Shown one piece after another: positions 6,378 to 6,532 of a stretch of DNA of 64,000 bases. The notes under the pieces are model-generated. The model searched no databases. It was not told the DNA's origin and saw only the letters and a list, made by a program, of their open reading frames with translations. Where the stretch lies: assembly GCA_029248525.1 (NCBI GenBank), contig JAQWJE010000014.1, positions 62,001 through 126,000 of the forward strand, given 5' to 3'. The position numbers and the translations under genes were made by a program. Every line of letters starts with the position of its first letter. The stretch's first letter is position 1. Origin of the DNA: Candidatus Binatia bacterium (GTDB lineage: Bacteria > Desulfobacterota > Binatia > UBA12015).

Positions 6378-6390
6378 CCACAATATGTGG
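6378..6390. promoter_or_regulatory. Palindromic operator-like site upstream of guaB
   Basis: The sequence CCACA-ATA-TGTGG has perfect 5-bp arms around a 3-bp spacer. It lies in the divergent gap between the gamma-carbonic-anhydrase-like gene and guaB, about 54 bp before the upstream ORF. Its position suits an operator or promoter element, but no known regulator motif was recognised. Confidence 0.3.
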
Positions 6391-6443
6391 TATATCTCAC
6401 CAGCGCGGGTTGCCACATCCGGTGTCGATTGATAGCCAAGTAC

Positions 6444-6530
6444 ATGGTTACTCCCTCGATTGCCAACTCTCTTTGCGGGACACTTCCGAGCTCGGGTCGA
6501 TCCCCGAGCTTTTTGCGTTTCGGAGGCTGA
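6444..6530 (+). CDS. Putative 28-residue leader peptide upstream of guaB
   Basis: An ATG at 6444 opens 28 codons ([18 protein letters not shown]...) ending in TGA at 6528-6530, two bases before the guaB ATG. The frame runs through the terminator-like hairpin at 6490-6514 and overlaps the guaB Shine-Dalgarno. Translation of this ORF could therefore disrupt the hairpin or couple to guaB. The peptide has no run of a regulatory amino acid, and no good ribosome binding site is visible, so it may be chance. Confidence 0.25.
6490..6514 (+). terminator. Intrinsic-terminator-like hairpin in the guaB leader (possible attenuator)
   Basis: A 7-bp perfect stem GCTCGGG/CCCGAGC (6490-6496 and 6503-6509) with a 6-nt loop is followed at once by TTTTT (6510-6514). 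It ends only 18 nt before the guaB start. A terminator this close to a start codon in the sense direction is more consistent with attenuation than with ending an upstream gene, because the upstream gene runs the other way. Confidence 0.5.
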
Positions 6531-6532
6531 AA

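Follow-up and report, generated by a model that had tools for sequence, protein, structure and literature searches.

A conserved promoter, upstream reading frame and hairpin suggest translation-coupled attenuation of guaB in Binatia

We think it reasonably probable that the region upstream of guaB in Binatia is a conserved two-layer control, in which NrdR-type control of initiation is combined with translation-coupled attenuation by way of a leaderless upstream open reading frame (uORF). The region was read in a 64-kb stretch of DNA from a Candidatus Binatia bacterium (the window, in what follows) and compared with its counterparts in other genomes of the class. The promoter, the uORF ATG, the reading frame, the hairpin and the NrdR-type box are conserved in that comparison, and from their sequences we infer where transcription would start and terminate, that the uORF would be translated without a leader, that NrdR would bind, and in which direction control would run. 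IMP dehydrogenase, the product of guaB, catalyzes the committed step to GTP. If the reading is correct, this would be coupling attenuation of a purine gene, making GTP supply dependent on translational capacity, and the NrdR-type box would tie the guanine pathway, together with dnaE where it is clustered, to a dNTP sensor.

The guaB leader and its gene cluster in the window

The original prediction had described a CCACA-ATA-TGTGG palindrome, a 28-codon ORF ending 2 nt before the guaB ATG, and a 7-bp stem followed by TTTTT. The palindrome (6378-6390) and the ORF can be read directly in the window; the TGA of the ORF occupies 6528-6530 and is followed by AA and then by the guaB ATG at 6533. The T-run (6510-6514) does lie 18 nt 5' of that ATG, but the stem has nine pairs, including one G-T, in the hairpin GAGCTCGGG-TCGATC-CCCGAGCTT at 6488-6511. 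The features are as follows.

6378..6393, forward strand: NrdR-type box 1 (CCACAATATGTGGTAT), which holds the palindrome; its center is ~58 bp 5' of the predicted start
6410..6425, forward strand: weak NrdR-type box 2 (TTGCCACATCCGGTGT), 32 bp past box 1 and overlapping the -35 element
6410..6415, forward strand: -35 element TTGCCA; the TTG is conserved 17 bp from the -10 in class-wide leaders
6430..6438, forward strand: extended -10 (TGA TAGCCA); TGNTA is present in 110 of 130 upstream regions
6444, forward strand: predicted transcription start, the A of the uORF ATG, sixth base past the -10
6444..6530, forward strand: uORF of 28 codons, predicted to be leaderless; ATG invariant in 110 leaders, frame protected to the stem
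6488-6511 (stem) and 6510-6514 (T-run), forward strand: putative intrinsic terminator (attenuator), supported by shuffles and by compensatory changes in family f1
6522..6526, forward strand: guaB Shine-Dalgarno sequence GGAGG, read from the sequence, 6 nt 5' of the guaB ATG
6533..7996, forward strand: guaB, IMP dehydrogenase (TIGR01302, 628.9 bits against a cutoff of 481.5)
8030..9637, forward strand: guaA, GMP synthase (NF000848); start uncertain, TTG at 8030 or ATG at 8048
9650..13114, forward strand: dnaE, DNA polymerase III alpha (NF004226)
13122..14453, forward strand: hflX (TIGR03156)
14447..14995, forward strand: pgsA (TIGR00560, 110.4 against a cutoff of 109.1)

A gamma-carbonic-anhydrase-like gene, divergent from guaB, probably starts at 6348, so that the terminator sits between guaB's own promoter and guaB. 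Expression of guaB would then require read-through, the 18 nt 3' of the T-run being too short for a second promoter. No Rfam covariance model matched positions 6000-7000 up to an E value of 10, and a riboswitch or other known RNA family, purine riboswitches included, was rejected on this ground.

The leader had also been proposed to control entry into the whole guaB-guaA-dnaE-hflX-pgsA cluster. In 20 representatives, guaA adjoins guaB in 18, and dnaE lies within about 150 nt after guaA in 11 (within 10.5 kb in 15), so that the cluster would be controlled along with guaB where the genes are linked. One fragment in this survey (L216) stops soon after guaA. Two f9 loci (L230 and L231) carry guaB without guaA, dnaE, hflX or pgsA over ~10 kb and keep the uORF-terminator leader. 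A genome labeled as the same species as the window (G118, locus L149) has a guaB only 67% identical and without the leader; this guaB is probably on a foreign contig, or the genome is mislabeled.

Within the window alone, the evidence is weak or near chance, the stem and T-tract scorer excepted, and it is the comparison that is decisive. Over 9.3 kb, a simple terminator scan gave 6 sites versus 8.3 in shuffles, the leader folds with a z-score of -0.47, and perfect 5-bp inverted repeats, which chance often produces over such a length, number three in the 155 bp of the leader region versus 0.93 expected; with the stem and T-tract scorer, none of 60 shuffles was as good as the window leader. That three unrelated features merely coincide would agree with parts of the window lying near shuffle level, but it is contradicted by their conservation at homologous positions across the class, and we regard coincidence as extremely improbable.

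Promoter, uORF and hairpin across the class

guaB was found in 133 of 148 class genomes, and 130 upstream regions were read, the three left out (G069, G103 and G144) missing the N terminus. A promoter scan for TTG-N16-18-TGNTA, in which an ATG was not demanded, matched 110 of the 130, and in all 110 an ATG stands nine bases on; two extra matches, in G106 and G137, are without ATG. The 20 regions that failed this strict scan comprise 12 with leaderless guaB, two cut by contig ends (G128 and G130), five in which the slot can be read behind a promoter that varies in sequence or lies farther away (G098, G099, G030, G050 and G104), and G118, with neither. In all 110 aligned leaders the A of this ATG is the sixth base past the -10 hexamer, where transcription would be expected to start; +1 is thus always A, and position -1 is always a pyrimidine (C at 0.88, T at 0.12). 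From this spacing and the pyrimidine-A pattern, the transcript appears to begin with the uORF start codon, so that the ORF seems to be leaderless, a feature that the original prediction missed. A purine-rich stretch 5' of the ATG (e.g., AGGAG in f12) would read as a Shine-Dalgarno sequence if the real start lay upstream, and this counts against the leaderless reading. Widespread leaderless expression was not seen in the window's own genome, where the pattern tried gave 16 matches versus 12 in the control, and leaderless genes do not look common there.

The grammar TTG-N17-TGNTA-N9-ATG occurs a single time in that 4.27-Mb genome, at guaB. A version extended with CTTG and YATGG matched 47 times in 145 class genomes, in 41 cases at known guaB loci; one other match lies on an unchecked contig of G124, and five lie elsewhere versus 11 in the backward control. 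Among 80 named guaB loci, the strict grammar was found in five (L032, L033, L034, L036 and L039), all taken as Binatia, L033 because its leader equals that of G134. Its presence outside Binatia is ruled out for the other 75 named loci, none of which has it. By these counts, the grammar is specific to guaB.

The same invariant Y-A-T-G, with G at +4 at a frequency of 0.87, could instead belong to a start-site switch, with A and G both fitting a pyrimidine-purine start. At high GTP, polymerase would start at the G two bases on, and the RNA would lack the AUG, go untranslated and be terminated; a start at A when GTP is low would yield a translatable AUGG RNA that escapes, so that the promoter would be the GTP sensor and the uORF and terminator its reader. 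Parallels exist in pyrC of E. coli and IMD2 of yeast. However, any ATG after a pyrimidine has the Y-A-T-G form, f2 leaders mostly read ATGT and some members of f5, f9, f12 and f15 read ATGA or ATGC, and the transcription start is itself predicted from sequence; we therefore consider the switch doubtful. It is a long shot that a leaderless uORF, with translatability set by nucleotide-dependent choice of the start base and gated by NrdR, decides GTP synthesis together with the linked replicase gene. Equally speculative is the picture that goes with it, of one promoter reading dATP/ATP (NrdR), ribosome readiness (the 5' AUG) and perhaps GTP (the A/G start).

Lack of conservation of the stem or the ORF in relatives had been named beforehand as a result that would refute attenuation, and it did not occur. 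Tested against 60 dinucleotide shuffles per leader, the hairpin-plus-T signal outscored 57 or more in 95 of the 110 leaders, and all 60 in 83; the remaining 15 leaders fail the shuffle test. RNAalifold was applied to three alignments, made up of 23 of 34 f9 leaders, 17 of 19 f2 with 5 of 7 f12 leaders, and 8 of 11 f1 leaders. The terminator is the only helix predicted, with no antiterminator in the consensus folds, and pairs with at least one two-sided change number 4 of 10, 1 of 11 and 2 of 9, respectively. The leader thus presents the arrangement of an intrinsic terminator, a G+C-rich stem and then a T-run lying between promoter and gene. The U-tract is weak in f8 and in parts of f1, f6 and f15, and the hairpin is absent in three of the 110 leaders; the hairpin and frame statistics below cover the other 107. 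Four f11 loci (L112, L133, L134 and L201) have a leader of ~130 to 200 nt with no obvious terminator on reading, and keep the NrdR box and the uORF slot.

The alignment of relatives' leaders that the original prediction had called for confirmed compensatory changes in the stem and retention of the ATG and frame, but not conservation of the peptide. Passage of the ORF through the hairpin, as claimed for the window, is true there, but the general pattern is to reach the hairpin and not always to pass it: 84 of the 110 uORFs pass it, 4 stop inside, 3 belong to leaders without hairpin, and 19 (of the 107) stop before it, always 5 to 16 nt 5' of the stem. Stops lying farther than 16 nt 5' of the stem occur in 0 of 107 leaders in frame 0, whereas frame 1 has them in 25 and frame 2 in 19. 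At the level of genera, the counts are 0, 17 and 12 of 55 (Fisher tests of frame 0 against frames 1 and 2, 3.5e-6 and 2.5e-4). All 107 leaders protect the uORF frame as far as the stem, translation itself being predicted.

Past the hairpin, a stop 0 to 30 nt 5' of guaB is found in frame 0 in 52 of 107 leaders, against 19 and 22 in the other frames, and 47 of the 110 uORFs finish close to the guaB start, at most 4 nt within the gene or 12 nt ahead of it. Such endings would suit a uORF that mainly delivers ribosomes to guaB by translational coupling, the hairpin serving as a constant damper, as would two genomes (G018 and G019) in which the uORF is kept without a good terminator. On the other side, guaB has its own Shine-Dalgarno sequence, and the 19 early stops are far from guaB and hold to their narrow distance from the stem. 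We judge this explanation unlikely.

The leader peptide is not conserved. Codon changes look near unconstrained (52 synonymous and 165 nonsynonymous), so a conserved peptide function was rejected, and codon-position bias is weak, with mismatches of 81:94:111 by position. No amino acid is prominent in the pre-stem peptides, Ala being highest at 15%, and with no codon signature an amino-acid attenuator was rejected. A protected frame with an unconserved peptide would be expected where a ribosome needs to arrive at the terminator and the peptide is irrelevant. The distance from ATG to stem has a median of 34 nt. In six f8 loci (L024, L027, L116, L119, L125 and L132), the hairpin lies ~9 to 12 nt past the uORF ATG and the T-tract is weak; an initiating ribosome alone would cover the hairpin base in this family.

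A hairpin conserved while the peptide is not would also be compatible with an attenuator under the control of some RNA-binding protein or ligand, the uORF being incidental. This reading finds no match in Rfam across 6000-7000 and no antiterminator in the consensus folds, and the gap between ATG and stem offers it only that median of 34 nt, and about 10 nt in f8. It also leaves the invariant ATG and the protected frame unexplained, and it appears improbable to us.

GTP as the signal is a separate matter. In the 105 leaders that were counted (two pre-stem segments being too short), GGG occurs in 8 pre-stem segments, versus 37 for CCC, 44 for AAA and 31 for TTT. This rarity speaks against GTP sensing through polymerase pausing at G-runs; it may instead arise because such runs could pair with the C-rich 5' arm and are avoided. 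The leaders give no support for a GTP-specific sensor.

In families f4, f10, f14 and f16, guaB's own ATG occupies the leaderless slot in 11 of 12 genomes, and in the twelfth the spacing is one base longer. A GuaB tree of 62 class proteins and 9 outgroups, which included 7 of the 12 leaderless-guaB genomes (from f4, f10 and f14; f16 was absent), placed these seven in one nested clade with support of 100/99. Nesting suggests that the leader came first and its loss later; in the simplest history, an old uORF-terminator leader of the class would have disappeared a single time, with guaB moving into the start slot. Such a clade can serve as a natural point of comparison.

An NrdR-type box upstream of the promoter

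The palindrome had been regarded as part of a single leader device together with the ORF and the hairpin. A role in the attenuator is rejected: the palindrome is placed 5' of the promoter, and its sequence is like that of the boxes of ribonucleotide reductase genes. Boxes were scored with a matrix trained on ribonucleotide reductase promoters from seven class genomes; ten reductase loci were scanned with a consensus box, of which seven were used and three (L248, L251 and L253) were dropped by judgment. In the seven genomes, these promoters carry tandem boxes 31 to 32 bp apart, of the same type as the guaB palindrome. No other single site in the 64-kb window scores as high as box 1 (18.2, the next being 14.0), and the two boxes form the window's top pair (23.0, next best 9.8), with box 2 alone scoring 4.7. 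Left-out reductase boxes score 15.0 to 20.2 for the first box and 8.3 to 15.7 for the second. A second box would be expected about three helix turns from the first; the one at guaB lies 32 bp on, and in most relatives it is degenerate, with mostly negative scores.

The best site falls at -66 to -62 in all promoters of f1 (11), f5 (14), f7 (1), f11 (1) and f13 (2) and in 4 of 7 of f15, and in none of the 74 promoters of f2, f3, f6, f8, f9 and f12. Scores are weak (2.7 to 4.2) in genus g2 of f1, and three further f11 promoters score 19.8 to 20.8. Among 79 named guaB upstream regions, five reach a score of at least 12: four from Binatia (L032, L034, L036 and L039) and one from outside it (L078, 13.5). 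The nrdR gene is present in all 10 genomes searched. The guaB palindrome is an NrdR-type box by this comparison and likely an operator of NrdR.

Further NrdR-box-like sites lie at 17663-17678 and 18837-18852 in the window, with scores of 14.0 and 12.3. Copies of the consensus box with one mismatch were noted elsewhere in the genome, at G000:C39:82422, G000:C49:286099 and G000:C49:781899; the overall count is near that of the backward control (16 versus 14).

NrdR is described as a dATP/ATP-dependent repressor (PMC9110341). At P. aeruginosa topA, a target outside the reductases, it reportedly activates from a single box (PMC4409342), so the sign of control at guaB could be either. PMC12051234 gives a spacing of 15 to 16 bp between tandem boxes in three of four bacteria compared, and PMC3616900 presents guaB as a PurR-regulated gene and not as an NrdR target.

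Proposed mechanism and known systems

In the two-layer reading that we prefer, the first layer would act in about a third of the leaders (f1, f5, f7, f11, f13 and part of f15), where the NrdR-type operator would overlap the promoter and initiation may respond to the dATP/ATP balance in step with that of ribonucleotide reductase. The second would be class-wide, lost in one clade. RNA polymerase would start at the A of the ATG, so that the transcript would open with the start codon of the short uORF, and would meet the predicted intrinsic terminator, which typically starts 30 to 50 nt past that ATG. A ribosome that loads on the 5' AUG, follows closely and reaches or passes the stem would keep the hairpin from folding, and polymerase would continue into guaB-guaA and, where linked, dnaE-hflX-pgsA. 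With the ribosome lagging or not initiating, transcription would stop. What would count is arrival at the stem, the peptide sequence being irrelevant, and the variable is likely the speed of ribosome loading and following relative to polymerase. An E. coli terminator is reported to be weakened by a ribosome at a nearby stop codon, with the effect gone beyond about 27 to 30 nt (PMC4824070). The 5-to-16-nt range from uORF stop to stem fits this, since a ribosome at a stop at such distances can still weaken the E. coli terminator. The translation-linked attenuation originally proposed is supported by the conserved ORF and stem and by the frame protected to the hairpin; GTP itself as the signal is not supported.

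Searches on guaB leaders, attenuation or uORFs, on NrdR with guaB or dnaE, and on Binatota promoters returned nothing on this element by title and start of abstract. Mycobacteria reportedly have leaderless polycysteine uORFs, said to have been described by Canestrari in 2020. Like the Binatia uORF, these are leaderless short ORFs that regulate downstream genes; they differ in using cysteine codons and attenuation of translation, according to PMC13236596, whereas the Binatia leader has a putative intrinsic terminator and no codon signature. The NrdR regulon has tandem palindromic boxes (PMC12051234), and the guaB region shares with it the motif that stands in these genomes' own reductase promoters; box 1, at 18.2, matches those boxes, and binding is predicted. 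It differs in its target, GTP synthesis, and in its weak second box.

Amino-acid attenuators are described as having over 20 bp between stop codon and terminator (PMC4824070); the stop lies 5 to 16 nt away in 19 Binatia leaders, and repeated end-product codons were not found in the pre-stem peptides. In S. meliloti, the attenuator RNA trpL/rnTrpL is reported to have the leader ORF's ATG at its very start (PMC7298713), as the Binatia transcript appears to have its uORF ATG. That system is an amino-acid attenuator, whereas the Binatia leader is without regulatory codons and its uORF reaches or passes the terminator. In pyrBI of E. coli, the leader ORF stops close to the structural gene, and the leader peptide is unimportant. 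The closest likeness is to its pyrL leader, where the terminator lies inside the leader ORF and a close ribosome is described as preventing termination (PMC4824070 and PMC5021804); by sequence, the Binatia uORF reaches the terminator in frame in 107 of 107 leaders. The differences are that the Binatia gene encodes IMP dehydrogenase, that its uORF appears leaderless, and that no nucleotide-run pause site was found before the stem (GGG in 8 of 105 pre-stem segments). Because of this last difference, we do not file the Binatia leader as a member of the pyrBI class and say instead that it would work like pyrBI.
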